Assembly (NCBI RefSeq): GCF_019263705.2 | Contig: NZ_JADQDK010000001.1 | Span: 6,014,001 to 6,078,000 of the forward strand | Direction of reading: 5' to 3' | From: Pseudonocardia abyssalis | GTDB lineage: Bacteria > Actinomycetota > Actinomycetes > Mycobacteriales > Pseudonocardiaceae | DNA: 64,000 nt | In this document: piece by piece, positions 6,577 to 59,731 of the stretch | Numbering within the stretch: position 1 is the first letter of the stretch | Layout of the letters: each line of letters begins with the position of its first letter | The notes under the pieces: model-generated | Database searches by the model: none | Told to the model about the DNA's origin: nothing | The model's input: only the letters and a program-made list of their open reading frames with translations | Position numbers and translations under genes: made by a program

Positions 6577-6683
6577 GGAAGAGCCTCCAGGCAGTTGGGT
6601 GACGGGTGTCACGATGGGCGAGGCAAGGCGCGGTGCACAGGTCCGATCGGGTGGCACGAGTCGGGACTGGCCGGTTTTTCGGT

Positions 6684-6698
6684 GTAATGATTATGCGG
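6684..6698. promoter_or_regulatory. A/T-rich motif in divergent promoter region
   Basis: GTAATGATTATGCGG stands out in a 278-bp gap of otherwise about 70% GC between the divergent ligase and SDR genes. Its right half, GATTATGCGG, resembles GATTACGAGG at the badI/badH divergent promoter and AATTATGAGG before the 40.7-kb operon. Candidate common operator or -10 region; nothing else is recognised in the gap. Confidence 0.35.
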
Positions 6699-6854
6699 TG
6701 ATGATGCGGTCAGGGGGACGGCGAAGTTCTCCCCACCGGCACCGCCCGCCGGGAGCCGGCCGGTCCACCGAGCCGGTCGATGCCGTGGAGCGACGTCATC
6801 GAATGCACACGCCGGGCGGCCGACCGGACGGACGACGAGCGCAGGGAGACGACG

Positions 6855-21115: not shown

Positions 21116-22795
<1,680 letters not shown>

Positions 22796-46015: not shown

Positions 46016-46800
46016 CCGAGACCGAGTTCCAGCACGTCCGGATCGAGGTCGACCGCGGGGTCGGCCTGCTGACCGTGGACCGGCCGCCGGCGAACGCGCT
46101 GGACCTCGCGCTCGTCCAGGAGATCTCGCTGGCGGCGACCCGGACGGCGGCCCGCGACGAGGTGGGCGCGCTCGTCATCACCGGGGCCGGGCCGCGGTTC
46201 GTCGCGGGGGCCGACATCAAGATGATGAACGCGCTCGACGCGGACGAGATGCCCCGGTTCATCAGCGGCATCCAACGGGCGATGGACGACATCGAGGCCA
46301 TCCCGCTGCCGACCATCGCCGCGGTCAACGGCCACGCCATGGGCGGCGGCATGGAACTGGCACTGGCGTGCGACCTCCGCATGCTCGCGGAGCAGGCGCG
46401 GATCGGGCTCCCCGAGGTGAAGCTCGGGCTGCTCCCCGGGGCGGGCGGCACGCAGCGGCTCGTGGAGGTCGTGGGCAAGGGCAGGGCGTTGGACCTGCTC
46501 TACACCGGACGCCAGCTCGCCGCCGCCGAGGCGTTGGCGTTGGGCCTGGTCAACAGCGTGCACCCGGTCGATCGGCTGGTGGCGGAGGCCGTGGACTACG
46601 CGGCAGGCCTCGCGGCGGGGGCCCGTCCGGCGCTGCGGGAGCTCAAGGCGTGCGTGCTGGCCCATCTCGACGGCGGCCGGCGAGCCGGGATGCGCGCCGA
46701 GGCGTCCGGGATCGACCGGCTCTTCGGCACCGCCGACGCCAGGGAGGGGATCGCGGCGTTCGTCGAGAAGCGGCCGCCACGTTTCGGGCAGGGGACGTGA
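46012..46800 (+). CDS. Enoyl-CoA hydratase with both catalytic glutamates
   Basis: 262-aa crotonase with the full hydratase signature: RFVAGADIKMMNALDADE, NGHAMGGGMELALACDLRML (first glutamate), GLPEVKLGLLPGAGGTQRL (second glutamate). It should hydrate trans-2-enoyl-CoAs to 3-hydroxyacyl-CoAs. Of the crotonases in the window it is the only one with both residues in place. It is coupled to the upstream hydrolase and converges, 12 bp apart, with the ADP-forming synthetase gene. Confidence 0.93.
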   Translation: MTETEFQHVRIEVDRGVGLLTVDRPPANALDLALVQEISLAATRTAARDEVGALVITGAGPRFVAGADIKMMNALDADEMPRFISGIQRAMDDIEAIPLPTIAAVNGHAMGGGMELALACDLRMLAEQARIGLPEVKLGLLPGAGGTQRLVEVVGKGRALDLLYTGRQLAAAEALALGLVNSVHPVDRLVAEAVDYAAGLAAGARPALRELKACVLAHLDGGRRAGMRAEASGIDRLFGTADAREGIAAFVEKRPPRFGQGT

Positions 46801-46812
46801 CCGCTGCGCGGC

Positions 46813-48888
46813 TCAGTCCGAGCTGAGCTCGATCCGTGCGTCGACGGCCAGCGCGGTACCCCGCCGGAGGTCGACCATCACCGGGTTGACCTCGACGGCG
46901 GCGATCCGCGGGTCGGTCACGACGCCGCCCAGCGCGGCCAGCATGTCGGCCAGTGCGTCGGTGACGGCGGGCGTGCGGTCGGCGAGGAAGCGACCGACCC
47001 GGCTGGCCGCGATCGCGCGGCGTGGGTCGGCGCCGGCCGGAACCAACCCGATGTCGTCGAGGTACTCCACTGCCGAACCGCCGGAGCCGAAGAGCAGCAC
47101 CGAGCCGGCGTCCAGGTCTCGCCGGGCACCCAGGAACACCTGCAGTTCCCCGGTGAGCTGTGCCTCGACGATGACCGTGGCCGACGCGGTCGCCGCGTGC
47201 AGCCTGCGCCACGCGGCCCGCACCTGGTCGTCGGCGACCAGGCCGAGCTCGACGAGGCCGGCGGCCGACTTGTGGGTGATCGAGTCGACGTCGGACTTGA
47301 GCACGACCGGTGGACCGATCGCCGCCGCCGCCGCCGCGGCGGCGTCCTCCCCTTCGGCCCGACGCGCCGGGCCGAAGGGGACGCCGAGACCCGCCAGCAG
47401 CTCCCGGACCTCGTGGTAGCCGGTGCCGAGCCGGGCCGGGAGCGTGACCGGTGCCGTCACCGCCGGTGCCACCGCCATGATGGGCGCGGATCCGGACCAG
47501 CGGGCGAGCGCCGCGATGGCTCGGTGCGAGCCGGGCAGCAGCGGTGGGGCGCCCGGTCCGGCGAGCCGGTGCCACCCGTCCAGGGTCGACAGCGGCCACG
47601 CGGTGACCACGAGCCGGTGCCGGTAGCGCGCGAACAGGTCGTCGAGCGCCTCCTGCTGGGCGGGAAGGACGTTCTGGTCGAGCACGTGCCAGGCGAGAAG
47701 CACCCGGTCGAAAGCCGGGTCGTCGAAGAACTGCTCCAGCATCGGGACCAGTAGGTCGGGCTTGCCGAGGATCTCCCCGGACGGATCGAAGGGGTTGGCG
47801 CCCCGGGTCAGGGTGAGATGCTTCCCGACCAGTCCGACGAAGGCGTCGGACGGGTCGGGCATGGCGATCCCGGCCGCGGTGGCCTGGTCGCTAATCAGCG
47901 CGCCCTCGCCGCCGGACAGCGCGACGACGCCCAGGCGTGCCGGTGCGGACGCCGTGCCCCATGCGACGCACAGCGCGGCAACCTCCCACAGCTGGTCGAG
48001 ATCGTCCACGACCAGCACCCCGGCGTCACGCAGCGCCGCGCGCTGCGAGCGCCAGTGCCCGGCGACCGCTCCCGTGTGCGACGCCGCGGCAGCGGCCCCG
48101 CGATCGGAGGTGCCGACCCGGCACAGGACGACCTGCTGGCCGGCCGCGGCCGCCGCGTGGACCCGCGGCCGCCACGCCGCCGCGGGGCCGAGCTCCTCGA
48201 CGATCAGTGCCAGCACCCTGACCCGGTCGTCGGTGGCCAGGTGCTCGACGACGTCCCAGGTCGTGAGGGTGGCCTGAAGCCCGGTGGCGACGGCGAGGCC
48301 CACGGCGAGCCCGTGATCCTGCGCGCGGTTGAACACGATGTTGCTCGACGCGCCGCTCTGCGAGACGACCGCCACCGGTCCAGGCACCACGCCGTCCGGG
48401 CCGATCATGTTTGTGGCCGCGCGCGGAACGTAGCGGTCGAACAGGTTGACGACACCCGTGGTGCTCGGTCCCAGCAGGGTGATCCGGTGCCGGTCCAGGA
48501 AGGCGTCGAGTGCCCGTCGTCGGGCCAGGCCGGCCGGTCCCGCCCCGCCCTCGCCGAAACCCGACGCGGCGACGATCACGTTGTCGATCCCGGCGGCGAC
48601 GCAGTCCTCCAGCACCGGCAGCACCCGGTCGGCACCGACGAGCAGCACGGCGGAGTCGACCGGACCGGGCACCTCGGCCAGGCTCGGGTGGCAGGTGAGG
48701 CCGAGCACCTCGGCGCGCCGCGGGTTGACCGGGTGGATCCGGCCGGTGAACCCGTAGCGCAGCAGGTTGTGCACGCAGGACCCGGTGAAGCCACCGAGAC
48801 CCTCCGACGCCCCGACGACCGCGACCGACGCCGGTGCGAGCAGGCGCGCGAGCGCAGGCCGGTGACCGACGCCGGCCGGCACGCTCAC
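46813..48888 (-). CDS. ADP-forming acyl-CoA synthetase-like protein (CoA-binding, ligase and ATP-grasp domains)
   Basis: 691-aa protein of the NDP-forming acetate-CoA ligase/Pat-like family. Residues about 10-135 are the CoA-binding Rossmann domain (SVAVVGASEGLGGFTGS, GRIHPVNPRRAEVLG). The middle is succinyl-CoA-synthetase-like flavodoxin domains (AVVSQSGASSNIVFNRAQDHG, GGEGALISDQATAAGI). Residues about 460-690 are an ATP-grasp domain (GPPVVLKSDVDSITHKSAAG, EAQLTGELQVFLGARRD, VEVNPVMVD). It makes or uses acyl-CoA with ATP and phosphate. GTG 48888 overlaps the permease stop (GTGA). Last gene of the nine-gene operon. Confidence 0.88.
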   Translation of the reverse strand: MSVPAGVGHRPALARLLAPASVAVVGASEGLGGFTGSCVHNLLRYGFTGRIHPVNPRRAEVLGLTCHPSLAEVPGPVDSAVLLVGADRVLPVLEDCVAAGIDNVIVAASGFGEGGAGPAGLARRRALDAFLDRHRITLLGPSTTGVVNLFDRYVPRAATNMIGPDGVVPGPVAVVSQSGASSNIVFNRAQDHGLAVGLAVATGLQATLTTWDVVEHLATDDRVRVLALIVEELGPAAAWRPRVHAAAAAGQQVVLCRVGTSDRGAAAAASHTGAVAGHWRSQRAALRDAGVLVVDDLDQLWEVAALCVAWGTASAPARLGVVALSGGEGALISDQATAAGIAMPDPSDAFVGLVGKHLTLTRGANPFDPSGEILGKPDLLVPMLEQFFDDPAFDRVLLAWHVLDQNVLPAQQEALDDLFARYRHRLVVTAWPLSTLDGWHRLAGPGAPPLLPGSHRAIAALARWSGSAPIMAVAPAVTAPVTLPARLGTGYHEVRELLAGLGVPFGPARRAEGEDAAAAAAAAIGPPVVLKSDVDSITHKSAAGLVELGLVADDQVRAAWRRLHAATASATVIVEAQLTGELQVFLGARRDLDAGSVLLFGSGGSAVEYLDDIGLVPAGADPRRAIAASRVGRFLADRTPAVTDALADMLAALGGVVTDPRIAAVEVNPVMVDLRRGTALAVDARIELSSD

Positions 48889-49712
48889 CGGCCCCCGCCG
48901 TGCTGCCAGGCGAGCGCGCTCCGGGTGGCCAGCGCGACCACCCGGTCGAGCCCCAGCCCGATCAGCAGCAGCGTCGCCACCGCGGCCAGGGTGCCTGCGG
49001 TGTTGAACTGGCCCGCGTTGAAGCTCACCAGGTAGCCGAGGCCGCGGTTGCCGGCCAGGATCTCCGCGGTGACCACGCCGACCAGAGCCTGCGGTACCGA
49101 GATCCGCATTCCCGCGACGATCCACACGAAGGCCGAGGGCAGCCGTACCTTGAACGCCACGTCCGCCCAGCCGCCGCCCATGATGCGCACCCCGTCGATC
49201 AGGGCAGGCTTGACCTCCCGGATGCCGTAGAAGGTGTTGTAGAACAGCAGCAGGAACACGATCAGCGCGCAGACGACCAGCGACAGCCCCGCACCGACGC
49301 CCACCCAGATGATCAGCAGCGGGATGATCGCCACCTTGGGCAGCGCGTACAGCGCGGTGATGAACGGCTCCGCCACCCCCGCCCAGAACCGCGAGACGCC
49401 GAGCAGGTAACCGAACACCACCGCGGACAGCCCGCCGATCAGGAAACCGGCCACCGCGACCCGGAACGTGGCGACCGCGTGGTGGAGGAGCGTGCCGTCC
49501 GCGATCCAGCGGACGACAGTGTCCCACACCGCGACCGGGGAGCTGATGAACAGTGGCGCGACCCAGCGTCCCGAGGCGTACTGCCACAGCAGCAGGAAGG
49601 CGACCAGGATCGCCGCCTGCAACAGGTGGCGGGCCACCCGGTCCCGGATCCCCGATGCTAGTACCGGCTTGGTCGCCACAGCACGGGCGCGACCGTTCAT
49701 GGTGTCAGTCAT
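48885..49712 (-). CDS. ABC transporter permease, SsuC/TauC type
   Basis: 275-aa integral membrane permease with about six hydrophobic segments (for example AAILVAFLLLWQYASG and VVCALIVFLLLFYNTFYG) and the cytoplasmic EAA-like loop around GVRIMGGGWADVAFKVRLPS. It resembles permeases for sulfonates, taurine, thiamine precursors and aromatic acids. ATG 49712 overlaps the end of the ATPase gene. With the ATPase and lipoprotein it forms a complete importer in the middle of a CoA-activation operon, so the cargo is probably the operon's carboxylic acid. Confidence 0.92.
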   Translation of the reverse strand: MTDTMNGRARAVATKPVLASGIRDRVARHLLQAAILVAFLLLWQYASGRWVAPLFISSPVAVWDTVVRWIADGTLLHHAVATFRVAVAGFLIGGLSAVVFGYLLGVSRFWAGVAEPFITALYALPKVAIIPLLIIWVGVGAGLSLVVCALIVFLLLFYNTFYGIREVKPALIDGVRIMGGGWADVAFKVRLPSAFVWIVAGMRISVPQALVGVVTAEILAGNRGLGYLVSFNAGQFNTAGTLAAVATLLLIGLGLDRVVALATRSALAWQHGGGR

Positions 49713-50496
49713 CGTCCTCCTCCGCGGTGTCCAGGGCGCGGCGCACGGCCAGCTGGGCTGCGAGGTACTCCTCGCTGAGCCGCAGCCGACGGAGGTCGCG
49801 ATTCGCTCCGAAGGGCATGGTCAGCTCGGCGACCACGCGGCCGGGTCGGTGTCCGAGCACCAGGACGCGGTCCGAGAGCAGCGCGGCCTCGGCGACGTCG
49901 TGGGTCACGAACAACACGGTCTGGTCCGCCTGCTCCACCGCCCGACGCACCTCGTCGTGCAGTCCTTCCCGCAGCCTCGCGTCGACGGCGGCGAAGGGCT
50001 CGTCCATCAGCAGCATCCGAGGCTCGTAGATCATGCTGCGGGCCAGCAGGGCTCGCCGCTTCATACCACCCGACAGCTGGGCCGGGTACCGGTCCGCGGC
50101 GTGCTCGAGGTCGAGCAGCCGTAGGTAGGTCTGGACCCGGTCGGCGATCTCGGGGCGCGGGACGCCGCGCATCCGCAGCGGCATCGCCACGTTCGCCCGG
50201 ACCGTACGCCAGGGCAGCAGGGTGTCGTCCTGGGTCATGTAGCCGATCCGGGTGTTGATCCCCGAGATCGCCTTCCCGTCGAACCGCACCTGACCCGAGC
50301 TGGGGACGAGCAACCCCGCGACGATGTTGAGGAGGGTCGACTTCCCGCATCCGCTCGGACCGAACAGCGTGACGAACTCACGCTCGCGCACCTGGATCGA
50401 GGTGGGCGCGAGGACCTCGGTGTCGCCGAAGCGGACGCTCACGCCGTCGAGACCGACGAGTTCCGCACGTGTCGCGGTCACGGTGCCGCCGCTCAC
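49705..50496 (-). CDS. ABC transporter ATP-binding protein, SsuB/TauB type
   Basis: 263-aa ATPase: Walker A GPSGCGKST near 46-54, Q-loop YMTQDDTLLPWRT, signature LSGGMKRR, Walker B MLLMDEPFAAVD and the switch histidine in FVTHDVAEA. It energises the adjacent permease. The GTG start at 50496 overlaps the stop of the binding-protein gene (GTGA). An acidic DTAEEDDD tail ends the protein. Confidence 0.94.
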   Translation of the reverse strand: MSGGTVTATRAELVGLDGVSVRFGDTEVLAPTSIQVREREFVTLFGPSGCGKSTLLNIVAGLLVPSSGQVRFDGKAISGINTRIGYMTQDDTLLPWRTVRANVAMPLRMRGVPRPEIADRVQTYLRLLDLEHAADRYPAQLSGGMKRRALLARSMIYEPRMLLMDEPFAAVDARLREGLHDEVRRAVEQADQTVLFVTHDVAEAALLSDRVLVLGHRPGRVVAELTMPFGANRDLRRLRLSEEYLAAQLAVRRALDTAEEDDD

Positions 50497-51533
50497 GAGC
50501 GGGCGATCGGCGCGACGTCGTCCTCGAAGCCGATCCCGTCGTAGGGCTTCCCTGTGGTCTGGGTCTGGAATTCCAGCGATGCGGTGAGCTGCTGGGGACT
50601 CAGGGCGCCGTCGAGGATCCAGGCCGGTGCGACCTGATCCCAGGACAGCCGGTAGACCTCGTCGGGAAGGTCGGGGAAGTACCTGTCCTTCACCGCGGCG
50701 CGGGTCTCCTCGCCCCGGTCGGTGATGGCGGTGCCCGCCGCCCGCAGCGCGGTGACGAACTGCTCCACCCGGGCGGGGTCGTTCTCGAGTGTCTCGGTGC
50801 GCACCAACGCCGTGGCGAACACGATGTCCTCGAGCTCCGGGACGTCACCGCGAGGCAGGTTGACCATGGGGACGGCGGTGCCGTCCGCGTAGTTGGTCTG
50901 CATCACCCCGGTCCCGTAGAAGGCGGCGTCGATCCCGTCGTTCTGGAGCCCGGCGACGATCGCGGTCGGCTCGGACGGGACGATGGTCGCGTCGGTGTCG
51001 GGGTTGAGGCCGTAGAGGGTGAACAGGGAGCGCAGCATCTGGTAGTTGGCCGACCCGGTCCGTGCGGTGGCGATCGTCAGCCCGCGCAGCGCCTGCACCC
51101 GCTGCTCGATCGGCGAGGTCTCGGTGATCCCGAGGCGCTGCGCCACGTCGGTGCGCATGCCGAGCTCGCTGGTGTTCCCGGCGATCGCGGCGACGACGAC
51201 GAGGGGCGCTCCCTCCTGCAGGGCGTCCCATCCCGACGCCGCGCCGACCAGCGCGACATCGGCGGCACCGGCGCTCAGCGCGGCGATGGTGTTGGGGCTG
51301 TTCCCGGCGAAGTCGGTGTACTCGTAGGCGATGCCGGCTTGGGCGAAGGTGTCCAGGGCCATCGCCGCCAGGAGCGGTCCGGCGCTGAGGCTCGAGCTGG
51401 CACTCGCGATCCGCAACGGGCCGCCGGCCGCGCCGGGGGCGGCTCCGCCGCCGCATCCCGCGAGCAGCAACGCCATGGTGAGCAGGACCGCGGGCAGGCG
51501 GAGCCTGCGGCCGGGGGAGGGTGACCGGGTCAT
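50493..51533 (-). CDS. ABC transporter substrate-binding lipoprotein (NMT1/SsuA-like)
   Basis: 346-aa periplasmic-type binding protein anchored as a lipoprotein: basic N-terminus, hydrophobic stretch and lipobox LLAGC with C27. The mature protein has the two-lobed NMT1/SsuA-like pattern (DTFAQAGIAYEYTDFAGNSP, GAADVALVGAASGW, LRGLTIATARTGSANYQMLR). Such proteins bind sulfonates, nitrate, pyrimidine precursors or aromatic/aliphatic carboxylates. Its ATG overlaps the stop of the crotonase upstream. The ligand cannot be predicted, but the operon suggests an organic acid. Confidence 0.91.
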   Translation of the reverse strand: MTRSPSPGRRLRLPAVLLTMALLLAGCGGGAAPGAAGGPLRIASASSSLSAGPLLAAMALDTFAQAGIAYEYTDFAGNSPNTIAALSAGAADVALVGAASGWDALQEGAPLVVVAAIAGNTSELGMRTDVAQRLGITETSPIEQRVQALRGLTIATARTGSANYQMLRSLFTLYGLNPDTDATIVPSEPTAIVAGLQNDGIDAAFYGTGVMQTNYADGTAVPMVNLPRGDVPELEDIVFATALVRTETLENDPARVEQFVTALRAAGTAITDRGEETRAAVKDRYFPDLPDEVYRLSWDQVAPAWILDGALSPQQLTASLEFQTQTTGKPYDGIGFEDDVAPIARS

Positions 51534-52285
51534 GATCGTCCTTTCGCCGGGGCGGTTCGGGTGCCGGGGGTCGCCGCGCCCTGCAGCGCCACCGCCTGTG
51601 TAAGCGCTTCGAGGGAGAGGTCGGAGTGCTGCGGGGCGGCGAACGCCCGCTTGGTGAGGGCGATCGTGTGCGCCCCGCGACCGACGAGATCAGCGGCGAG
51701 CTCGGTCACCCTGCTCACCAGCTCGTCGTCGGAGGTGACCGCATCGACGAGCCCGCAGCGCAGGGCCTCGTCGGCGTCCAGGTCGGCGCAGGTGAGGGCG
51801 AGCGCCAGCGCACGACGCCTGCCGATCGACTCCACGAGGTGGCGGGTGAGACCGGCGTCGGGGACGAGGCCCCTCGCCCCGAACAGCAGGGCGAACCGGG
51901 CCGACCCCGCCGCTACCACGATGTCGCAGGCCAGGGCCAGGGAGACCCCACCGCCGGCGGCGATCCCGTTGACCGCGGCGACCGTCGCAAGGCGGCTGCG
52001 GCGCATCCGTTCGACCAGCCGTTGGGTGCGCTCCACCCGGGCCACGGAGGTCAGGAGGTTCTCGACCTCGCCCGCGGCGGCCAGCTCGCGGGTGTCCGCC
52101 CCGGCACAGAACGCCCGACCGGTACCGGTCAGCACCAGGCAGGCCGCACCCGGATCGTCCTCAGCCCGCTCCAGCGCGGCGAGCAACTCGTCCTTGAGCG
52201 CGGTCGTGATGGCGTTGAGCACCTGTGGCCGGTTCAGCCGCACCCAGTGGGTGCCGCCGACGACCTCGACCTCGAGATCAGCCAC
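51530..52285 (-). CDS. Enoyl-CoA hydratase/isomerase, PaaG-like
   Basis: 251-aa crotonase: LNRPQVLNAITTALKDE, GRAFCAGADTRELAAAGE, NGIAAGGGVSLALACDIVVA and ARGLVPDAGLTRHLVESIG. The first hydratase glutamate is absent (GGGVSLAL) and the LVPDAG segment is of the isomerase type. It begins inside the end of the SucD-like gene (8-bp overlap). In the operon it could isomerise or open the ring of a CoA-activated substrate. Confidence 0.88.
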   Translation of the reverse strand: MADLEVEVVGGTHWVRLNRPQVLNAITTALKDELLAALERAEDDPGAACLVLTGTGRAFCAGADTRELAAAGEVENLLTSVARVERTQRLVERMRRSRLATVAAVNGIAAGGGVSLALACDIVVAAGSARFALLFGARGLVPDAGLTRHLVESIGRRRALALALTCADLDADEALRCGLVDAVTSDDELVSRVTELAADLVGRGAHTIALTKRAFAAPQHSDLSLEALTQAVALQGAATPGTRTAPAKGRS

Positions 52286-53153
52286 GGGTCAGCTCCCGCA
52301 GCGCGTCGCGGGCCGCCCACAGGGTGGGGACCACCACCGCACCGGCCTCGGCGAGCGCTGACTCCTTGCCGGCCGCGGAGTCCGCGCCCGACGAACTCAG
52401 GGCGCCGAGGTGCCCCATCCGCCGGCCCGGCGGTGCCGTACGGCCGGCGATGAACGCCACCACCGGGGTCCGCATCCGCGTCACCTGCTCCGCCGCGGCG
52501 GCCTCCATGGTCCCGCCGATCTCGCCGAGCACCAGTACCGCATCGGTGTCCGGGTCGGCCTCGAACAGCTCCAGGTAGCGAGCCTGGCTCGTGCCGAGAA
52601 CCGGGTCTCCGCCGATCGACACCGCCGTGGACTGGCCGATGCCCGCACCGGTCAGCGCCCGCAGCATCTCGATCGCCAGGCTGCCGCTCTTGGAGATCAG
52701 CCCGACCCGGCCGGGTGTGGTGCAGCCCGGGGGCAGCATGCCGAGCAGGGCGGACTCGGGAATGATCGCGCCGACACAGTTGGGCCCGACCAGGGTCGTT
52801 CCGGCTGCGCGCGCGTGTTCGACGATCTCGAGGGTCTCGTGGACCGGAACCCCCTCCGTCACGAGTACGACCGGGTCCAGGCCGGCCTCGATGGCCTCCA
52901 GCGCGGCGCCGGTCGCCGCTCGGTCGCGCGGGGGGACGTGCACGATCGAGGCGGTCGCGCCGGTGGCCGCGACGGCCTCCGCGACCGTGTCGAAGATCGC
53001 GACGTCGTCGACAGTCGTGCCGCCGCGGCCGGGCGTCACGCCGGCGACCGCGGGGGTACCGAACTCGGCGAGAGCCCGCAGCTGGCGCCGTCCGGCGGAG
53101 CCCGTGGCGCCCTGGACCAGAACGCGGGTGCTGCGGTCGGCGAGGATGCTCAT
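52278..53153 (-). CDS. SucD-like acyl-CoA synthetase alpha subunit
   Basis: 291-aa homologue of succinyl-CoA synthetase alpha: VLVQGATGSAGRRQLRALAE (CoA-binding Rossmann), VGPNCVGAIIPESALLGMLP, LISKSGSLAIEML (power helix), SIGGDPVLGTSQARYLELFE, and the phosphorylated histidine H248 in RRMGHLGAL, usually GHAGA. It should act with the next gene as an NDP-forming acid-CoA ligase. The MGHLG and KSGSLA substitutions set it apart from housekeeping SucD, so another diacid or hydroxyacid is likely. Confidence 0.87.
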   Translation of the reverse strand: MSILADRSTRVLVQGATGSAGRRQLRALAEFGTPAVAGVTPGRGGTTVDDVAIFDTVAEAVAATGATASIVHVPPRDRAATGAALEAIEAGLDPVVLVTEGVPVHETLEIVEHARAAGTTLVGPNCVGAIIPESALLGMLPPGCTTPGRVGLISKSGSLAIEMLRALTGAGIGQSTAVSIGGDPVLGTSQARYLELFEADPDTDAVLVLGEIGGTMEAAAAEQVTRMRTPVVAFIAGRTAPPGRRMGHLGALSSSGADSAAGKESALAEAGAVVVPTLWAARDALRELTRG

Positions 53154-54232
53154 GACGCTGCCTCCGTGTCCGGACGTGTTGCCGCGCCAGCCAGCTCGGC
53201 TGCACGGGAGATCGCCTGTTCCAGTTCGGGCCGCACGTCGACGCCGAGCCCGGCCAGCTCGCCCAGCAGGTCCCCGGTGTCCGAACGAGCCGCCCCGCTT
53301 CCGAAGTAGGCGACGGCGGGGACGTCGAGGCCGACCTCGACGATCACGTCACGGATCACGCTCAACACGCCGCCGAGCGGGGTCAGCGACACGGACAGCA
53401 CGATCAGGACCGCCGCGACGTCGTCGTCGCGGCACCGGTGCAGGACCTGCCGGGCGACGTGGGTCAGCCGTTGCGTGGTGACCCCGCCGACGATGTCGGC
53501 GAAGTTGGCCGGTGGGGTGCCGAGATGGTGCAGCATGTCCGCCACCGCCATGCCCAGCCCGGCGCCTCCACTGAGCACGGCGACCGGGCCGGGGCGCGGG
53601 AAGTAGACCGTGCCGTCCTCGGCCTCGTGCTCGAAGGTACGCAGCTTCGCGTCGGCGAGCACGAACCGCGCCCCGTCCCAGATCAACGGGTTGATCTCCA
53701 GCAACTCTCCCTGGTGGCGTCGGAACAGGTCCCACAGCCGGACGAGCAGCGCCCCGGCGGCAGCCGCCTCGTCGGCCGGCAGGCCGACCCGGTGCGCCAG
53801 CTCGGCCCCGTCCTCCGCCCGGACCCCCCGGGCCATCGAGATGTCGGTCCGGGCCAAGAGGGCGGGGTCGCCCGACTCGATCTCGATCCCGCCCCGCGCG
53901 CCGAACACCGCGTAGGGCCGCCCGGCCGCGGTGTCCAACCCGATCGCGACGTAGCGCTCGGACCGGGTCGGGACGGCCAGCTCCACCAGCTGGTCGGCCT
54001 CGGGTGCCACCTGCCGGATCGCCTCGCCCGCAGCCAGCAGCCCGGCCTCGTCGTCGGCCCGGCGGACCAGCCCGCCCTTGCCGCGTCCGCCGTAGGGCAC
54101 CTGCGCCTTGACGTACCACGGGCCGGTCTCCCCGACCAGCGGCACGGCCTTGCCGGTGCAGAGCCTGCCCACCGGCACGGGCAGCCCCGCCGCGGCCAGC
54201 ACCGACTTCGCCTCGTGCTCCAGGTAGATCAC
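53150..54232 (-). CDS. SucC-like acyl-CoA synthetase beta subunit
   Basis: 360-aa ATP-grasp protein homologous to succinyl-CoA synthetase beta: YLEHEAKSVLAAAGLPVPVG, WYVKAQVPYGGRGKGG, LLEINPLIWDGARFVLADAK, VLSGGAGLGMAVADMLHHLG and ANFADIVGGVTTQRLTH. The phosphate-transfer GAGL and EINPL metal-binding features are present. GTG 54232 overlaps the stop of the CoA-transferase-like subunit (GTGA), and its end overlaps the alpha-subunit gene. Shorter than E. coli SucC (388 aa). Not adjacent to TCA genes, so a dedicated catabolic ligase is inferred. Confidence 0.86.
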   Translation of the reverse strand: MIYLEHEAKSVLAAAGLPVPVGRLCTGKAVPLVGETGPWYVKAQVPYGGRGKGGLVRRADDEAGLLAAGEAIRQVAPEADQLVELAVPTRSERYVAIGLDTAAGRPYAVFGARGGIEIESGDPALLARTDISMARGVRAEDGAELAHRVGLPADEAAAAGALLVRLWDLFRRHQGELLEINPLIWDGARFVLADAKLRTFEHEAEDGTVYFPRPGPVAVLSGGAGLGMAVADMLHHLGTPPANFADIVGGVTTQRLTHVARQVLHRCRDDDVAAVLIVLSVSLTPLGGVLSVIRDVIVEVGLDVPAVAYFGSGAARSDTGDLLGELAGLGVDVRPELEQAISRAAELAGAATRPDTEAAS

Positions 54233-54975
54233 GAGGCGGCCTCCCGCAGCAACCCACCGGGGTCGACGACCGAGCGCAGCACCGAGATCTCCTCGGGCGT
54301 CGGCTCGGGGGTGCAGGGCGGAGGTTGGTCGGGGAGCGGCCAGCCGGTGTCGCGTCGGACCGCGGCCCAGTCCCGGGTGCCGTGGGTGCTGCGTGCCAGC
54401 AGTTCGCCCCCGTCGGGGGCGAAGAGCACCGACGGCGTGACGAGCACGGCGGGCCCGAGGTTGGGCATGCCCAGCTCGGCACGGGTGCGCCTGCGGATGC
54501 GCAGGCCGGCGATCGAGACGAAGTCGACGTGCTCGACGAGCACTCGCGGGTCGTGGCGCTCCAGCCAGAGCAGGATGCGTCCCGCGGTGTGGCCGAAGGA
54601 GGTGTTGGCGACTCCCGGCCCCCGCAGCCGTCCCTGAGGGCGGTCCACCCAGTGCAGGTTGACGTTGCCGAACCGGTCGATCTGCAGGCCGCTGTGGAAG
54701 ATCGCGTCGATGCCCCGCTCCGTGGTCTGGTAGACGTCGACGAAGTCGCCGGTGGCCTCGGGGCGGCAGTCGAGTCCGGCGGCGAGCGCCACCAGCCGCC
54801 GGGGGTTGGTGTAGATGCCTCCGGCCAGCACGGTGAGGTCCGGGGCGTGCGTGGCCTGGGCCAGCAGGCAGGCCGCCGCCGGCACCAGCGAGCGGACGCC
54901 CGTCCCTACGGTCCACCCGTCACGCAGCTCGCGGGCCAGCAGGACGGCCATCCGTTCCCTGGATCCCAGGTTCAC
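54229..54975 (-). CDS. CoA-transferase family I beta-type subunit, IpdB-like, lacking the catalytic Glu
   Basis: 248-aa chain similar to glutaconate CoA-transferase beta and IpdB. It has TVGTGVRSLVPAAACLLA, DRFGNVNLHWVDRP, GPGVANTSFGHTAGR and VEHVDFVSIAG. In glutaconate CoA-transferase the acyl-accepting glutamate lies in the IIVESG segment; the same place here reads TVLAGG, so the residue is absent. IpdAB of steroid-degrading actinobacteria is a transferase-fold hydrolase that opens the last steroid ring; a similar hydrolytic role is inferred. GTG 54975 overlaps the alpha-subunit stop. Confidence 0.82.
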   Translation of the reverse strand: MNLGSRERMAVLLARELRDGWTVGTGVRSLVPAAACLLAQATHAPDLTVLAGGIYTNPRRLVALAAGLDCRPEATGDFVDVYQTTERGIDAIFHSGLQIDRFGNVNLHWVDRPQGRLRGPGVANTSFGHTAGRILLWLERHDPRVLVEHVDFVSIAGLRIRRRTRAELGMPNLGPAVLVTPSVLFAPDGGELLARSTHGTRDWAAVRRDTGWPLPDQPPPCTPEPTPEEISVLRSVVDPGGLLREAAS

Positions 54976-55844
54976 GCGAGTGCCTCCGTCTCGAGTGTGC
55001 GCAGGTGCGGGTGGCCGATCAGCTCGGCGTACTCCGCTGGCCGCTCCGCCCGGCAGTAGCGCTGCAGGTACTCCTGAGCCGCCCCGGTCCGCACGGCCCG
55101 CACGTACTCCGCGAGATGGCGCACGTCCGCGCTGTAGCACCCTCCGCTCGCCGTGGGGTGCGCTGCAAACGGGGCCGCGACGATGCCGTCGACGAGGTGA
55201 CCCGGTACGCCGATGCCGACCCGGCGGACGACCGAGGTCGGCACGATCGCGTCGACCTGGGCGTAGACCCGGGTGCTCGCGCGAGCCAGCAGCAGATCGG
55301 CGTAGCGGCTGCCGAGATAGGCGAGGTTGCCCGCGCTGTCGCCGAGCGGGGCGTGCAGGAACGCGACATCGGGGTGGCAGGCCGCCACCACGCGGTGCCC
55401 GTCGCGCGTGTCGAGCAGCGGGTTGTCGTCGAGCACGTCGTTGGCGCCGAGCTTGTGCAGGACCTGGTAGGGGGAGTCCTCGGCCGCAGCGATCAGGCTG
55501 CCTATCAGCACCGCCTCGTCTAGGTCCTCGAACACCACGCCGGCGTCGGCGGCCGCGCGCACGCCGGGGGCCAGACCCGCCTCGCCAAGGGAGACGTGCG
55601 GGATTCTCAGCCGCTCCACGAGCCCGGCGACCAGCAGCACATCCGCGTCCCAGGACGCCGCCGGGCTGGAGGTGAGCACCCGTGTCCGCAACCCGGCCCG
55701 CACGGCCGCCCGGACGAGGGTGGCCGGCCGGTTCTCCAGGGCCAGGCCACCGAGCGCCAGCACGTCGACCGGCGGCAGCGACGCGATCACCTGTGCCGGG
55801 TCGGTCACCTTCGTGCCCGGTCCACGGGCCGTCACAGCAGTCAT
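54972..55844 (-). CDS. CoA-transferase family I alpha-type subunit, IpdA-like
   Basis: 290-aa partner of the gene above. DVLALGGLALENRPATLVRA is the glycine-rich N-terminal motif of the family, followed by LGANDVLDDNPLLDTRDGH, FLHAPLGDSAGNLAYLGSRYADLL and GCYSADVRHLAEYVRAVR near the end. The DSAGN-like turn and C-terminal Tyr-rich helix resemble IpdA. ATG 55844 follows AGGAGG and is the first gene of the nine-gene operon, 134 bp from a divergent TetR gene. Confidence 0.83.
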   Translation of the reverse strand: MTAVTARGPGTKVTDPAQVIASLPPVDVLALGGLALENRPATLVRAAVRAGLRTRVLTSSPAASWDADVLLVAGLVERLRIPHVSLGEAGLAPGVRAAADAGVVFEDLDEAVLIGSLIAAAEDSPYQVLHKLGANDVLDDNPLLDTRDGHRVVAACHPDVAFLHAPLGDSAGNLAYLGSRYADLLLARASTRVYAQVDAIVPTSVVRRVGIGVPGHLVDGIVAAPFAAHPTASGGCYSADVRHLAEYVRAVRTGAAQEYLQRYCRAERPAEYAELIGHPHLRTLETEALA

Positions 55845-55923
55845 CGTCGCCTCCTGCAGTCGTGCTGACCGTAGGTGCCCGATCGGCGAATCGTCAACCA
55901 TCCGGTCGAAGTATAGAAGGATC

Positions 55924-55940
55924 GTCGGTAATCGACCGAC
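55924..55940. promoter_or_regulatory. Palindromic operator for the adjacent TetR regulator
   Basis: GTCGGT-AATCG-ACCGAC: perfect 6-bp arms around 5 bases, in the middle of the 134-bp gap between the divergent tetR (start 55979) and the nine-gene operon (start 55844). Position and symmetry fit autoregulation and operon control by that TetR protein. Confidence 0.65.
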
Positions 55941-55978
55941 TGGTAGCATCGACCCGGCGATCACGGGACGGAGCGGCG

Positions 55979-56629
55979 ATGACAGGTGTGCGCGGGGCGG
56001 TCGGCTCGGCGGAGCAGCCCACGGGGGGGCGGGTTGCGCGGCGGCGCGACCGCAAGGTCCAGGACATCCTCGCCGCGGCGGCGGTGGTGCTCGCCGAGCG
56101 CGGGTACCACGGCCTGAGCCTGGACGAGATCGCCGAGCGGCTGGACCTCACCAAGGCGTCGCTCTACCACTACTTCCCGAGCAAGGAGGAGCTCGTCAGC
56201 TCCTGCCTCGAGCAGCTCGGCAGCTCGCTCAACGGCGAGCTGCGGGACCTGGTGGTCGCACACCCGGGCACCGCGACCGAGCAGCTCACCCTGCTGATCA
56301 CGCGACAGCTCGAGCTGATCGTGCGCACCCGCCCGGAGATGGCCCGGCTGTTCCTCCAGCCGCTGGACTGGCCCGAAACCTACCGGCGGCGGACCCGCCG
56401 GCTGCGTGAGGGACACGACGCGATCTTCCGGGCGGTCGTGCGCCGCGGCATCGCCGACGGGGAGTTCGACGTGGACGAGGACGTGGCGATGCACAACCTC
56501 TACGGGGCGATGAACTACGTGCCGGTGTGGTTCCGCGGCCGCCGCAAGCGGGACTTCGACGCGGCGTCCGCCGCGGTCGCGGCGAACCTGCTGCGGCTGT
56601 TCCGTCCCGGAGCCGGTCCCGGCGGCTGA
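55979..56629 (+). CDS. TetR-family transcriptional regulator
   Basis: 216-aa repressor. The DNA-binding domain is clear: RKVQDILAAAAVVLAERGYH, LSLDEIAERLDLTKASLYHY with the helix-turn-helix, and FPSKEELVSSCLEQ. The C-terminal ligand-binding domain of about 150 aa resembles the TetR_C group of KstR2/FadR-like regulators that respond to acyl-CoAs (VRTRPEMARLFLQPLDWPE). ATG 55979 is chosen, as upstream codons lack family similarity. Divergent from the IpdAB-like operon with a palindrome between; likely its repressor. Confidence 0.93.
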   Translation: MTGVRGAVGSAEQPTGGRVARRRDRKVQDILAAAAVVLAERGYHGLSLDEIAERLDLTKASLYHYFPSKEELVSSCLEQLGSSLNGELRDLVVAHPGTATEQLTLLITRQLELIVRTRPEMARLFLQPLDWPETYRRRTRRLREGHDAIFRAVVRRGIADGEFDVDEDVAMHNLYGAMNYVPVWFRGRRKRDFDAASAAVAANLLRLFRPGAGPGG

Positions 56630-56632
56630 AGG

Positions 56633-56647
56633 GCCCGGCGGCCGGGC
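56633..56647. terminator. Short GC hairpin between convergent genes
   Basis: GCCCGGC-G-GCCGGGC, a 7-bp perfect inverted repeat right after the tetR stop and 24 bp before the DUF35 stop. Confidence 0.45.
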
Positions 56648-56670
56648 GTGGCCGCCCACCCCGATGTCCG

Positions 56671-57081
56671 TCACGAGCCGACCACGCCGGTGAAGCGGAG
56701 CTCCGTCCACCCCTCGTGATCGACGAAGTGGGGAACGACCCGGGCGTCTAGGGGCACCCCGTCGGCCATCCTGGCGATCATGCGGCCGCCTCCGTCGAGG
56801 TCGACGGTGGCGACGGAGTAGGGCACCTCGGCGGCGAAGGCCGGGTCCAGGGTCCGGTGCACCGTGATCGAGGAGTAGACGGTGCCGGTGCCGGGCGCAT
56901 CCTCCCACCGCGATTCCGGGTGCGCGCAGTACGGGCACGCCGGCGTGGGCGGGAACCGGCGCCGGTCGCACGCTGCGCAGGCCTGCAGCGCCAGGCGGTG
57001 CGCGCGCAGGTTCGCCCAATGCGGCTCGCTGTCGACGTCGGTGTTCGGCGGGGGCGGCCCGGGGCGCTCGGGGGTCGGCAC
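56671..57081 (-). CDS. Zn-ribbon/OB-fold protein (DUF35)
   Basis: 136-aa DUF35 protein with zinc ribbon ACAACDRRRFPPTPACPYCA and OB-fold strands GTVYSSITVHRTLDPAF, YSVATVDLDGGGRMIARM. Fits the small partner of the thiolase-like protein at 58170. GTG 57081 has GAGGAGG upstream and follows the crotonase stop by 11 bp. The thiolase-like gene is divergent rather than adjacent, unlike the 2.8-4.4 kb pair, but the three genes share the promoter region near 58.0 kb. Confidence 0.87.
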   Translation of the reverse strand: MPTPERPGPPPPNTDVDSEPHWANLRAHRLALQACAACDRRRFPPTPACPYCAHPESRWEDAPGTGTVYSSITVHRTLDPAFAAEVPYSVATVDLDGGGRMIARMADGVPLDARVVPHFVDHEGWTELRFTGVVGS

Positions 57082-57092
57082 GGCGGTCCTCC

Positions 57093-57914
57093 TCAGCGCC
57101 CGGTGAAGGATGGCCGGCGCTTCTCGGCGAAGGCGACCAGGCCCTCCTCGGCGTCGTGGCTGGTCAGGCAGTAGCGGCTGGTGACCTCACGCTCCAGGCG
57201 TATTCCGGCGGCCACGCCGGTGCCGTCCCATAGGGCGGCGTTGAGCACCCGCTTGGCGTTGCCCACCGCCAGCGGCGACTTCTTCGCCACCTCCGCGGCG
57301 AATGCGGTTCCCGCTGCGACGAGTTCCTCGTCGGGCACCACCTTCGACACCAGCCCCCAGTCCAGGGCCTCCTGGGGCCAGAGCAGCCGACCGGACAGGA
57401 TGAGCTCGCGCGCCCTGGCCGGGCCGACCGCGCGCGGCAGCAACGTGAGCACCCCGCCCCCACCCATCTGGCCGAACGTGAGGTGCGCGTCGCCGATCCT
57501 GGCCGAGGTGGAGGCGATGGCGAGATCGCAGGACAGCAGCAGCTCGATCCCGCCGGCCACGGCGACGCCGTTGACCAGGGCGACGAACGGTTTCGGGTAC
57601 TGGCCTATCCGGGCGAACACCTCAGTGGCGTCGCTCAGGAACTGGGGAAACGCGGCCGGGTCACGCTGCAGTTCCCGGTACTTCTTCATGTCCCCACCCG
57701 CGGAGAACGCCCGCCCGGCGCCGGTCACCGCAACGACCCGGACACGGTCGTCGCCGGCCAGCTCGTCGAACACCCGGCCCAGCTCCAGCGCCGTCGGCCA
57801 GTCCAGCGGGTTCATCTCGGCTGGCCGGTTGAGGGTGACCAGGCCCATCTCGTCGTCCCCGTCGCCGAGCCGTACCCGGTCGACGAGGATCCCGGCCTGC
57901 TGCTGTGTGGTCAT
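57093..57914 (-). CDS. Crotonase-fold enoyl-CoA hydratase/isomerase family protein
   Basis: 273-aa crotonase: LNRPAEMNPLDWPTALELG, RAFSAGGDMKKYRELQRDP, NGVAVAGGIELLLSCDLAIA and GDAHLTFGQMGGGGVLTLLP. The first glutamate (GGIELLL) is kept; the second position is DAHLTF, without glutamate. This mix occurs in crotonases that act as hydrolases or isomerases on cyclic CoA esters. ATG 57914 follows GGAGGCC-like sequence. Divergent from the thiolase-like gene across a 255-bp gap that has a 19-bp tandem repeat and an operator-like palindrome. Confidence 0.88.
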   Translation of the reverse strand: MTTQQQAGILVDRVRLGDGDDEMGLVTLNRPAEMNPLDWPTALELGRVFDELAGDDRVRVVAVTGAGRAFSAGGDMKKYRELQRDPAAFPQFLSDATEVFARIGQYPKPFVALVNGVAVAGGIELLLSCDLAIASTSARIGDAHLTFGQMGGGGVLTLLPRAVGPARARELILSGRLLWPQEALDWGLVSKVVPDEELVAAGTAFAAEVAKKSPLAVGNAKRVLNAALWDGTGVAAGIRLEREVTSRYCLTSHDAEEGLVAFAEKRRPSFTGR

Positions 57915-57952
57915 GTACGGCCTCCGCGGTCTGCGCTGCTGTCGGTGGCGGC

Positions 57953-57999
57953 GACCGCTCGCGATGGCGGGGACCGCTCGCGATGGCGGGGACCGCTCA
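57953..57999. repeat. 19-bp tandem repeat
   Basis: Two perfect copies of GACCGCTCGCGATGGCGGG (57953-57971, 57972-57990) and a partial third to 57998. It lies just upstream of the minus-strand crotonase gene, outside coding sequence. Confidence 0.8.
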
Positions 58000-58073
58000 C
58001 CGGTCGCGGCCCGCCGCGGCCGGCGTCGGACCAGGCCCGACGGTTCCGCCGTCCTGACTCAATGGACGGAATC

Positions 58074-58091
58074 TTAACACTTAGCCGTTAA
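58074..58091. promoter_or_regulatory. Palindromic operator candidate
   Basis: TTAAC (58074-58078) and GTTAA (58087-58091) around 8 bases, about 32 bp upstream of a strong promoter. Read on the minus strand it gives TTAACGGC, the same as half of the palindrome at 29328-29339. Confidence 0.45.
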
Positions 58092-58122
58092 CCAACGCCA
58101 ACGAAAAAGTTCGAATCGCCGG

Positions 58123-58151
58123 TTGACGAACCGGGTCCGCCGCCCTAGCGT
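58123..58151 (+). promoter_or_regulatory. Sigma70-like promoter of the thiolase-like gene
   Basis: TTGACG at 58123-58128 and TAGCGT at 58146-58151 with the ideal 17-base spacer. The start codon at 58170, with GGGAGG before it, follows 18 bp after the -10. The best promoter match in the window. Confidence 0.65.
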
Positions 58152-58169
58152 CCTCGACCGGGAGGCGAC

Positions 58170-59318
58170 ATGAGAGACGTGGCGGTGTCGGGCGTCGGGT
58201 ACTCGGCGTTCAGCAAGGCCTCCGGGCGGACGGTGCTGGACCTGGCGACCGAGGCGGCGCGCGCCGCCACGCTCGACGCGGGCCTGCGGCCCGTCGACGT
58301 CGACGGGGTGGTCAGCTTCAGCGTTCTCAACGACTCGGTGTCGAGCGAGGCGGTGGCCACCACGCTCGCCGTACCCGGGCTGCGCTTCGTGATGGACTTC
58401 CAGCAGGGCGGACAGTCGCCGTGCTTCATGGTGCAGCAGGCCGCGATGGCGGTGGCCCAGGGCTACGCGGAGAACGTGGTGGTCTTCCGCGCGCTCAACG
58501 GCCGGTCCGGGGTTCGCGTCGGCAGCACCGCCTTCGGCAGTGGCGCGGCGCAGTACCGGTACCCGATCGGCTACTCCGCGTACCTTATGTACATCGCGAT
58601 GTGGGCCCGGCGCTACCTGCACGAGACCGGCGGCGACGAGCGCGACCTGGCGGCCGTCGCGCTGGCGCAGCGGGTCTACGCGCAGGCAAACGACCGTGCC
58701 ATCCAGCGCCGCCCGCTGGACCTGCCCGGTTACCTGGACTCGCCGATGATCGCCGAGCCGTTCCGGGCCGCCGACTGCACCAGCGAGGTCGACGGTGCCT
58801 GCGCGGTGCTGGTGACCAGCCTGGACCGGGCTCGCGACCTGCCGCACCCGCCGGCGGTGGTGGCATCGGCCGCCTACCGGGCCGACGCCCGGCCGGGCCT
58901 GGACATTGGCGACCAGCTGCTGCACGACGACTACACCCGCAACTTCACCCACGGGCTGCGCGACGAGCTGTACGGCCGGGCCGGCATCAGCGCCACCGAC
59001 GTCGACTTCGCCGAGATCTACGACTGCTTCACCAGCGTGGTGCTGATGGGGCTGGAGGGCCTGGGCTTCTGCGATAGGGGAGAGGCCGGCGCGTTCGTCC
59101 GGTCCGGGGCGACCGCACGCGACGGAACGCTTCCGGTCAACACCCACGGCGGCCTGCTCGCCGAGGGCTACCTGCACGGCATGAACACGGTCGCCGAGGC
59201 GGTGCTGCAGATCCAGGGTCGTGGTGGTGACCGGCAGGTGCCGCGCCACGAGGTCGGCGTCGTCACCTCCGGCGCGCTGACCGACGGCTCGGCCCTGGTG
59301 CTGACGGCTGATCGTTGA
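58170..59318 (+). CDS. Thiolase-like protein, SCP2/Ltp type, atypical active site
   Basis: 382-aa thiolase-fold protein: VAVSGVGYSAFSKASGRTV, GGQSPCFMVQQAAMAVAQG (C84 close to but not in the usual context of the nucleophile), EIYDCFTSVVLMGLEGLGF, and LPVNTHGGLLAEGYLHGMN, where the GHP-x-GAxG histidine motif is missing. Such proteins with a DUF35 partner can be aldolases (Ltp2) rather than thiolases. ATG 58170 follows GGGAGG. Function as retro-aldolase on a branched 3-hydroxyacyl-CoA is inferred; a degenerate thiolase is the alternative. Confidence 0.84.
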   Translation: MRDVAVSGVGYSAFSKASGRTVLDLATEAARAATLDAGLRPVDVDGVVSFSVLNDSVSSEAVATTLAVPGLRFVMDFQQGGQSPCFMVQQAAMAVAQGYAENVVVFRALNGRSGVRVGSTAFGSGAAQYRYPIGYSAYLMYIAMWARRYLHETGGDERDLAAVALAQRVYAQANDRAIQRRPLDLPGYLDSPMIAEPFRAADCTSEVDGACAVLVTSLDRARDLPHPPAVVASAAYRADARPGLDIGDQLLHDDYTRNFTHGLRDELYGRAGISATDVDFAEIYDCFTSVVLMGLEGLGFCDRGEAGAFVRSGATARDGTLPVNTHGGLLAEGYLHGMNTVAEAVLQIQGRGGDRQVPRHEVGVVTSGALTDGSALVLTADR

Positions 59319-59541
59319 CCCGGAGGACCCGGCGACCGGTCTGACCATCCGGTTCACCGCTCTGCTCGGCATCCGGTGCATCGCCAGCCATCCGTCGCCG
59401 AACCGGGCCGCCCGCCGCATCGAGGAGTCGCTGTGGCCGCCGACCCAGTGGGTGGTGTGCGGCGGCGGGCAGGAGCGCGGGCCCGTGCGCAGACCACCGC
59501 GTGGCTCACCCGTATCCGGCGGCTCCCCGGCCAGGCGCTGA
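59305..59541 (+). other. Coding-like stretch without a start codon
   Basis: The 308 bp after the thiolase-like gene contain an open frame to TGA 59539-59541 with G/C in nearly every third position: GLTIRFTALLGIRCIASHPS, then RRIEESLWPPTQWVVCGGG. It has no ATG or GTG before the tryptophan-rich part and no ribosome site. Possibly a remnant of a gene whose 5' end has been lost. Not recognised. Confidence 0.3.
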
Positions 59542-59731
59542 TCCCCTGTCAGCATGGCGGGACTCCAGCACGTGATCGTAGAACGACATCTCGGGCGAAC
59601 TTCGAACTGACGGTTGAGAGAATGGGGTGGCGTCCTACCTCGCCCGAGCTCGACCGGACGTCTATGGTCCGGGGCATGGTCGATACCAACCTCTTCGGTC
59701 CCGCCCCGACGGCGACGATCAGCTCCCGCTC

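Follow-up and report, generated by a model that had tools for sequence, protein, structure and literature searches.

Which compound is handled by nine tightly coupled genes that join an importer, two NDP-forming CoA ligases and an IpdAB-type pair, and how far does the unit to which they belong extend? The question is raised by a stretch of 64,000 nucleotides of the Pseudonocardia abyssalis genome (contig NZ_JADQDK010000001.1, positions 6,014,001 to 6,078,000), here called the window, to which all coordinates refer. We hold it to be on balance probable that the genes belong to an accessory cassette of 13 genes, the subject of a recent exchange between species, that serves the catabolism of an imported organic acid, probably a cyclic or branched one.

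The coupled operon and its divergent regulator

The operon consists of nine coding sequences on the minus strand (55844-46813), which encode, in this order, an IpdA-like and an IpdB-like subunit, a SucC-like and a SucD-like ligase subunit, a crotonase-fold protein, a substrate-binding lipoprotein, the ATPase and the permease of an ABC importer, and a fused ADP-forming-type acyl-CoA synthetase (ACD). From the IpdA-like gene to the synthetase gene all eight junctions overlap, by 4, 4, 4, 8, 4, 4, 8 and 4 bp, respectively, and the preliminary description, which had claimed nine coupled genes with overlaps of 4-8 bp, is borne out at each of them. Because the genes overlap, all nine can be assumed to be co-transcribed. 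A scan of positions 46700-58300 gave no match to a sigma-70-type promoter or a terminator. A divergent TetR-family regulator of 216 aa, assigned by its family match, is encoded on the plus strand (55979-56629), and the perfect palindrome GTCGGT-AATCG-ACCGAC (GTCGGT-N5-ACCGAC) lies at 55924-55940, both as had been described before. The palindrome is probably the TetR operator, from which the regulator would exert repression. At zero mismatches it is a single copy in the 6.3-Mb genome; with arms of 6 bp, in a gap of 134 bp between the divergent genes, it is weak evidence taken alone, and operator-like sites with up to two mismatches are not above chance in the window (nine, the palindrome included, versus 9.25 expected).

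The block shared with a sister genome and its recurrence

The nine-gene coupled operon is real but is not the whole unit, which comprises 13 genes (~12.5 kb), as the block common to the sister genome G023 extends past the operon and continues through the genes for TetR, a DUF35 protein, a second crotonase and a thiolase-like protein to ~59.3 kb. Mismatches against G023 amount to 1.1% in 46350-59650, the low-divergence block that we take to be the exchanged cassette, versus 5.9% in the remaining aligned part from 34 kb on, and silent-site divergence is 62/3356 (0.019) in the 13 block genes versus 348/2788 (0.125) in nine flanking genes. The cassette is absent from the same site in four other close relatives (G059, G056, G038 and G035), two of which have kept a lone TetR homologue (L117, L118). 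Two related species seem to have exchanged the cassette as a single unit not long ago. The lone TetR genes favor an old presence followed by loss, the 99% identity of G000 and G023 favors a recent exchange or a common donor, and both may hold. Since the cassette borders are sharp and genomes with and without the cassette at one site exist, a growth comparison is possible, provided that the strains are obtainable.

The full set of the nine families, whose co-occurrence was to be checked according to the preliminary description, was found only in the window genome and G023, whereas the five-gene core IpdA-IpdB-SucC-SucD-crotonase is also present, in the same order and with 43-55% identity, in Nocardioides caldifontis. 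Genes of a TRAP importer come after the core there, along with one for an acyl-CoA dehydrogenase and one for an AMP-binding-domain protein. Neither the ABC importer nor the ACD proteins had a match in the fetched Nocardioides stretch. Since Nocardioides has TRAP and AMP-binding-domain proteins, the ABC importer and the ADP-forming synthetase are not fixed parts. Of the former claim of acid import with ADP-forming activation, it holds that one operon couples the IpdAB-type pair and both NDP-forming ligases to an importer, but the ADP-forming activation is not a constant feature. A further locus, L035, combines genes for TetR, IpdAB, the thiolase-like protein, crotonase and DUF35 protein with 66-77% identity. 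IpdB-, SucC- and binding-protein homologues are found on database contigs of equal size (12910, 11978 and 6702 bases), and from these sizes we infer that they share the same contigs, on which the five-gene core would then recur. In the plasmid collection all matches to the IpdB-like and SucC-like proteins had less than 60% identity (91 and 103 records, respectively). As had been claimed earlier, no described pathway with such a gene combination was among the papers listed for the literature searched, which includes few subscription journals.

Enzymes and importer of the cassette

The IpdA-like alpha subunit (54972-55844, minus strand, 290 aa) and the IpdB-like beta subunit (54229-54975, minus strand, 248 aa) form an alpha/beta pair of the class I CoA-transferase fold; the former matches Pfam CoA_trans, and the latter gives no Pfam match, its alignment profile matching GctB at 3e-21. 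In the alignment of eight of the nine IpdA-like rows (the paralogue L101 was left out), which was anchored by the RHA1 IpdA E105A mutant chain, the Glu aligned with IpdA Glu105 is invariant (8/8; Glu110 in the window protein). None of the 25 IpdB-like sequences aligned, i.e., the window protein and 24 of 107 homologues, has a Glu at the position of GctB Glu54, which is occupied by Gly (11), Ala (8), Cys (4) or Ser (2); the window protein has Ala51 where RHA1 IpdB has Gly57. On these residues an ordinary class I CoA-transferase, which would move CoA between acids, is rejected. Such a function would fit the CoA_trans match and the label glutaconate CoA-transferase that several relatives carry from their source, but it is highly improbable, as the catalytic Glu is missing from 25/25 sequences and IpdAB with Gly at this position showed no CoA-transferase activity in the tests described in PMC5380842. 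The pair might also be a decarboxylase of the AibA/AibB type acting on a glutaconyl-type CoA thioester, so that a branched short-chain acid is degraded or built without ring opening. AibA is the best match in the profile search with the alpha subunit (6.8e-42, followed by GctA with 1.1e-39 and IpdA with 3.5e-38), and Cys, which replaces the Glu as Cys56 in AibB, is present in 4/25 IpdB-like sequences; however, AibA has Gly where the window family has its invariant Glu, and the window protein has Ala rather than Cys at the AibB position, which makes this function unlikely. PMC7756340, from which the AibB residue is taken, also treats the need for Cys56 in AibAB itself as disputed. We therefore prefer to regard the pair as an IpdAB-like hydrolase.

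The SucC-like beta subunit (53150-54232, minus strand, 360 aa, ATP-grasp_2) and the SucD-like alpha subunit (52278-53153, minus strand, 291 aa, CoA_binding and Ligase_CoA) form the first NDP-forming ligase. SucD-like has kept the phosphohistidine stretch of succinyl-CoA synthetase (RMGHLGAL, with GHLGAL aligned to GHAGAI). The [GA]GI loop, which we take to have its role at the acyl site of SucC, is missing from all nine SucC-like sequences aligned (the window protein, seven of 65 homologues and one from L036), which have S-x-T instead (S282-x-T284 in the window protein), and is present in 31/37 control loci (absent in three, partial or without letters in three). A TCA succinyl-CoA synthetase is thus rejected on residues, and another SucCD-like pair in the genome (C1:5807267-5809315) is 36% and 44% identical to the window pair. 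The second ligase, the fused synthetase (46813-48888, minus strand, 691 aa), combines CoA_binding_2, Succ_CoA_lig and ATP-grasp_5 like an ACD, and its His motifs SHTGA and HKS align with those in solved relatives; presumably the second His is catalytic as well. The first catalytic His is described in PMC6388921.

The crotonase-fold protein of the operon (51530-52285, minus strand, ECH_1) was correctly recognized before as a crotonase; more exactly, it is PaaG-like (GLVPDAG), and a hydratase is not favored for this reason. A hydratase role is assumed for the second crotonase-fold protein (57093-57914, minus strand, ECH_1), which has homologues with 72-74% identity in L035 and L100, close to the IpdAB genes there. 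The thiolase-like protein (58170-59318, plus strand) and the DUF35 protein (56671-57081, minus strand, zf-ChsH2 and OB_ChsH2_C, ChsH2-C type) both have 6ok1 (Ltp2/ChsH2-DUF35) as best PDB match (2.6e-76 and 2.1e-16, respectively). With Tyr at the positions of the catalytic Tyr294 and Tyr344 of TcLtp2 and with the DUF35 partner present, they can be predicted from sequence to be an Ltp2-ChsH2(DUF35)-type pair.

The binding lipoprotein (50493-51533, minus strand, lipobox recognized by eye), the ATPase (49705-50496, minus strand, family match) and the permease (48885-49712, minus strand, BPD permease match) together make up a NitT/TauT-type importer with an NMT1/SsuA-type binding protein, and score under the NCBIfam cut-offs for named importers. 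The PDB sequence search with the binding protein, which was aligned with 20 of 21 homologues, gave no match; its model fits the structures of SsuA, TauA, CmpA, Thi5 and PqqT, and the fold points to no ligand. This fit would agree with a substrate such as a sulfonate or some other small anion, the CoA enzymes treating an organosulfur acid, but the ligands of the SsuA/TauA fold class are very diverse and no desulfonating or desulfinating family is found among the 13 proteins (Pfam; NCBIfam for those scanned), and we consider such a substrate improbable.

Proposed route and comparison with known systems

On balance, the cassette probably serves the catabolism of an imported carboxylic acid by way of C-C hydrolysis, which is likely to affect a ring. 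We infer the following reactions and their order. The importer would take up the acid, and the fused synthetase would convert it to the CoA thioester. An unsaturated side chain may then be hydrated by the crotonase at 57093-57914 and lose a short acyl-CoA via retro-aldol cleavage by the thiolase-like/DUF35 pair, and the PaaG-like protein may shift a double bond into position. The IpdAB-like enzyme would then hydrolyze a C-C bond beside a keto-acyl thioester, so that the ring is opened and a new carboxylate is set free, onto which the SucCD-like ligase, its acyl site presumably having lost the resemblance to the succinate site, would transfer CoA, or run in reverse to make ATP. That one or both ligases run backwards, releasing acids and recovering thioester energy as ATP instead of activating a substrate, is rather doubtful: NDP-forming synthetases work either way (PMC6388921, PMC12890257) and two of them per operon otherwise look redundant, but the importer in the same operon favors activation, and the AMP-binding-domain protein nearby in Nocardioides also counts against the reverse direction. 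Reverse running of the SucCD-like pair is compatible with the route preferred here. Tentatively, with less confidence than in the cassette as such, we propose that an IpdAB-type hydrolase and an Ltp2/DUF35-type aldolase act outside steroid breakdown in a self-contained swapped cassette, where a SucCD-type ligase with a novel specificity would put CoA back on the carboxylate that ring opening yields. If true, this would be an undescribed route to mineralize a cyclic acid, with importer (ABC or TRAP) and first ligase replaceable. An IpdAB relative with the same Glu, joined to a SucCD-type ligase and an importer, is a concrete candidate enzyme for hydrolyzing C-C bonds or rings in other acids, and the small SucC family offers a well-defined place to look for a CoA ligase of new specificity.

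IpdAB is the COCHEA-CoA hydrolase of steroid ring catabolism according to PMC5380842, and the literature consulted ties its hydrolase activity to the last steroid rings. The window pair resembles it in having two subunits of the class I CoA-transferase fold and no transferase Glu, in the Glu105 counterpart and in a crotonase-fold partner gene. It belongs to a separate subfamily and differs in that the alpha subunit is just 24-27% identical over the structural alignment and in that counterparts of ipdC, ipdF and fadA6 are missing from the nine-gene operon, which has SucCD-like, ABC and ACD genes instead. The 3-methylglutaconyl-CoA decarboxylase AibA/AibB (PMC7756340) has the same fold and the alpha subunit nearest by sequence, but differs in both residues discussed above. 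The thiolase-like/DUF35 pair resembles the steroid side-chain aldolase Ltp2-ChsH2(DUF35) (6ok1, PMC12329534) in its best PDB match and both catalytic Tyr positions, but its DUF35 protein stands alone (136 aa, without a MaoC domain) and YDCF replaces YDHF. The fused synthetase shares three Pfam domains and the catalytic His with the feruloyl-CoA synthetase FCS1 (PMC6388921) and the 4-hydroxybutyrate-CoA ligase, but its match is far under the NCBIfam cut-off (202.5 of 1300 bits). The SucCD-like pair is a two-subunit ADP-forming-type ligase like SucCD and the re-purposed SauCD and HpfYZ, for which new substrates are already known (PMC12890257); unlike SucC, the SucC-like proteins are short (352-362 aa) and carry S-x-T where most SucC have [GA]GI, and they form a distinct rare family.

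Organization of the operon and rarity of its families

The nine minus-strand genes running from 55844 to 46813 code for an IpdA-like, an IpdB-like, a SucC-like and a SucD-like protein, a crotonase, a binding lipoprotein, an ABC ATPase, a permease and a fused ADP-forming synthetase. They are present where the preliminary description had put them, the short overlaps it reported amount to 4 or 8 bp at all eight junctions, and the gene families it named are borne out by Pfam and NCBIfam. The IpdB-like beta subunit had no match in the Pfam scan, and a profile of it built from 25 relatives matched GctB (3e-21), AibB (6.6e-17) and IpdB (8.3e-10) in the PDB. The perfect palindrome that had been described next to the divergent TetR gene, GTCGGT-N5-ACCGAC, was located at 55924-55940. 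A genome scan revealed it as the single occurrence at 0 mismatches, and with at most one mismatch 30 genome sites were found versus 9 for the reversed control pattern.

The SucC-like family is present in two of 100 genomes of one search, the window's own and the sister genome G023, and in one of 396 genomes of a phylum sample, again its own (574 bits, next best 145). IpdB-like matches of >150 bits occur in three of 394 genomes of a class sample (own, G318, G128) and in one of 397 of an order sample (own), the best five or six candidates per genome being scored in these profile counts. Database contigs of 12910, 11978 and 6702 bases are sizes common to IpdB, SucC and binding-protein homologs, those of 3956 and 4867 bases to IpdB and SucC, 13813 to SucC and the binding protein, and 18882 to IpdB and the binding protein; we take this to mean that the homologs lie on the same contigs. 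The window's genome has a second IpdB-like gene (G000:C1:5254489-5255211, in locus L101), whose alpha partner is devoid of the Asp-Glu motif and which has matches at E 1e-20 or better in 101 of the 397 order-sample genomes.

A larger block shared with the sister genome

The window and contig C39 of G023 are colinear, and a low-divergence block spans 46350-59650 (borders to 50 bases), with 1.1% mismatches inside versus 5.9% elsewhere in the alignment from 34 kb onward. The block is ~99% identical to G023 and both flanks ~94%. The originally proposed extent of nine genes holds for the operon itself; the block shared with G023 is larger and comprises 13 genes, adding the divergent TetR, a DUF35 gene, a second crotonase and a thiolase-like gene. 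Silent changes affect 62 of 3356 sites in the 13 block genes and 348 of 2788 in nine flanking genes (Fisher p 6e-66, with sites that are incompletely independent). Since selection at the protein level would not reduce silent change so far, the block was probably exchanged recently or acquired from one donor.

The left flanking gene has a close counterpart (E 1e-75 or better) in six of 62 genus genomes, and in each of the six that contig also bears the right flanking gene. The distance between the two matches is ~12.8 kb for the window's genome, ~13.0 kb for G023, and ~82, 932, 1358 and 225 bp for the relatives G059, G056, G038 and G035, respectively. No operon gene was detected at E 1e-5 in these four short sites, where crotonase queries matched the flanking crotonase only. 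G056 and G038 carry lone TetR genes, 83% identical to that of the window, between the same flanking genes (L117:2865-3494 and L118:2852-3487), and in G038 14 of the 17 operator bases are kept.

Relatives carrying parts of the gene set

A single pattern scan across named bacterial genomes, queried with the IpdB-like alignment, returned six loci. L034, taken as G023 contig C39, has all nine operon genes with 98-100% protein identity. L036 of Nocardioides caldifontis keeps IpdA-IpdB-SucC-SucD-crotonase in this order (43-55% identity), followed by TRAP DctP, DctQ and DctM, an acyl-CoA dehydrogenase and an AMP-binding-domain protein. L035 of a Pseudonocardia sp. contains genes for TetR, IpdAB, the thiolase-like protein, a crotonase and DUF35 (66-77% identity); IpdB is followed by what by eye is an apparent zinc alcohol dehydrogenase and then by the contig end, at which any SucC/SucD genes would be cut off. 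In L037, L038 and L039 IpdAB was found and SucC/SucD had no match >60 bits; an ACD-type synthetase is present in L037 and in L038, the latter copy truncated where the stretch ends. A recurrent arrangement in these three loci is a gene for a 746-756 aa protein after the IpdAB-like genes (L037:10792-13032, L038:10799-13048, L039:10796-13066), and the L037 copy, the one scanned, shows acyl-CoA dehydrogenase domains, the C-terminal domain being matched in two stretches. The more distant IpdAB loci L099 (G318) and L100 (G128) gave no SucC/SucD at E 1e-6; L100 has a DUF35 protein of 46% identity and a crotonase that shares 72% identity with the second crotonase of the window. Near its IpdAB pair lie two tandem ORFs of equal length with identical first 70 residues (L100:3551-5029 and 5254-6732), by eye a duplicated transposase.

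Enzymes and a proposed pathway

The SucC-like family is small, with eight database proteins of at least 45% identity, the window's own counted, plus the Nocardioides copy. All nine rows carry S-x-T, with S282 and T284 invariant, in a loop that we take to contact the acyl group; [GA]GI stands there in 31 of 37 control SucC loci. The phosphohistidine loop is retained in the SucD-like subunit, as are both His motifs in the fused synthetase. For the operon crotonase, PaaG is the best match both among PDB entries (6.1e-34) and in NCBIfam (159 bits, below the cut-off of 345), and the crotonase keeps the Asp of the PaaG GLIPDCG stretch, a presumably functional residue.

The thiolase-like and the DUF35 protein both match PDB 6ok1, the TcLtp2-ChsH2(DUF35) steroid aldolase, best. 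Tyr294 and Tyr344 are reported as the catalytic residues of TcLtp2 (PMC12329534), and the window protein has Tyr at both positions, counted along the PDB alignment. The second crotonase (best NCBIfam match EchA19, 183 bits, below the cut-off of 400) is assumed to be a hydratase feeding such an aldolase. At the end of the thiolase-like gene and past it, 59253-59471 (minus strand) resembles an F420-dependent LLM oxidoreductase (E 2.7e-7, below cut-off) and is possibly a gene remnant. Elsewhere, at 21140-22795 (plus strand), two consecutive same-frame ORFs look by eye like one Baeyer-Villiger-type monooxygenase split by a stop codon.

Beside the observed families, residues, gene order and block borders, we infer a set of reactions and their order: an acid would be imported, activated by the ADP-forming synthetase and trimmed by hydration and retro-aldol cleavage, and after a double-bond shift and C-C (ring) hydrolysis the SucCD-like pair would ligate CoA to the newly freed carboxylate. 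The structure model of the binding protein (pLDDT 89) fits a fold class with ligands of many kinds. That the 13 genes form a catabolic cassette for an imported acid, working by this mechanism as a whole, is a reading to which we lean slightly.

A literature search for such a combination, with most subscription journals outside its scope, showed among the papers listed none that joins IpdAB-type and SucCD-type genes in one pathway. Each enzyme kind in the cassette is already known, and SauCD and HpfYZ are SucCD-like. Both are ADP-forming CoA ligases for unusual acids (PMC12890257).
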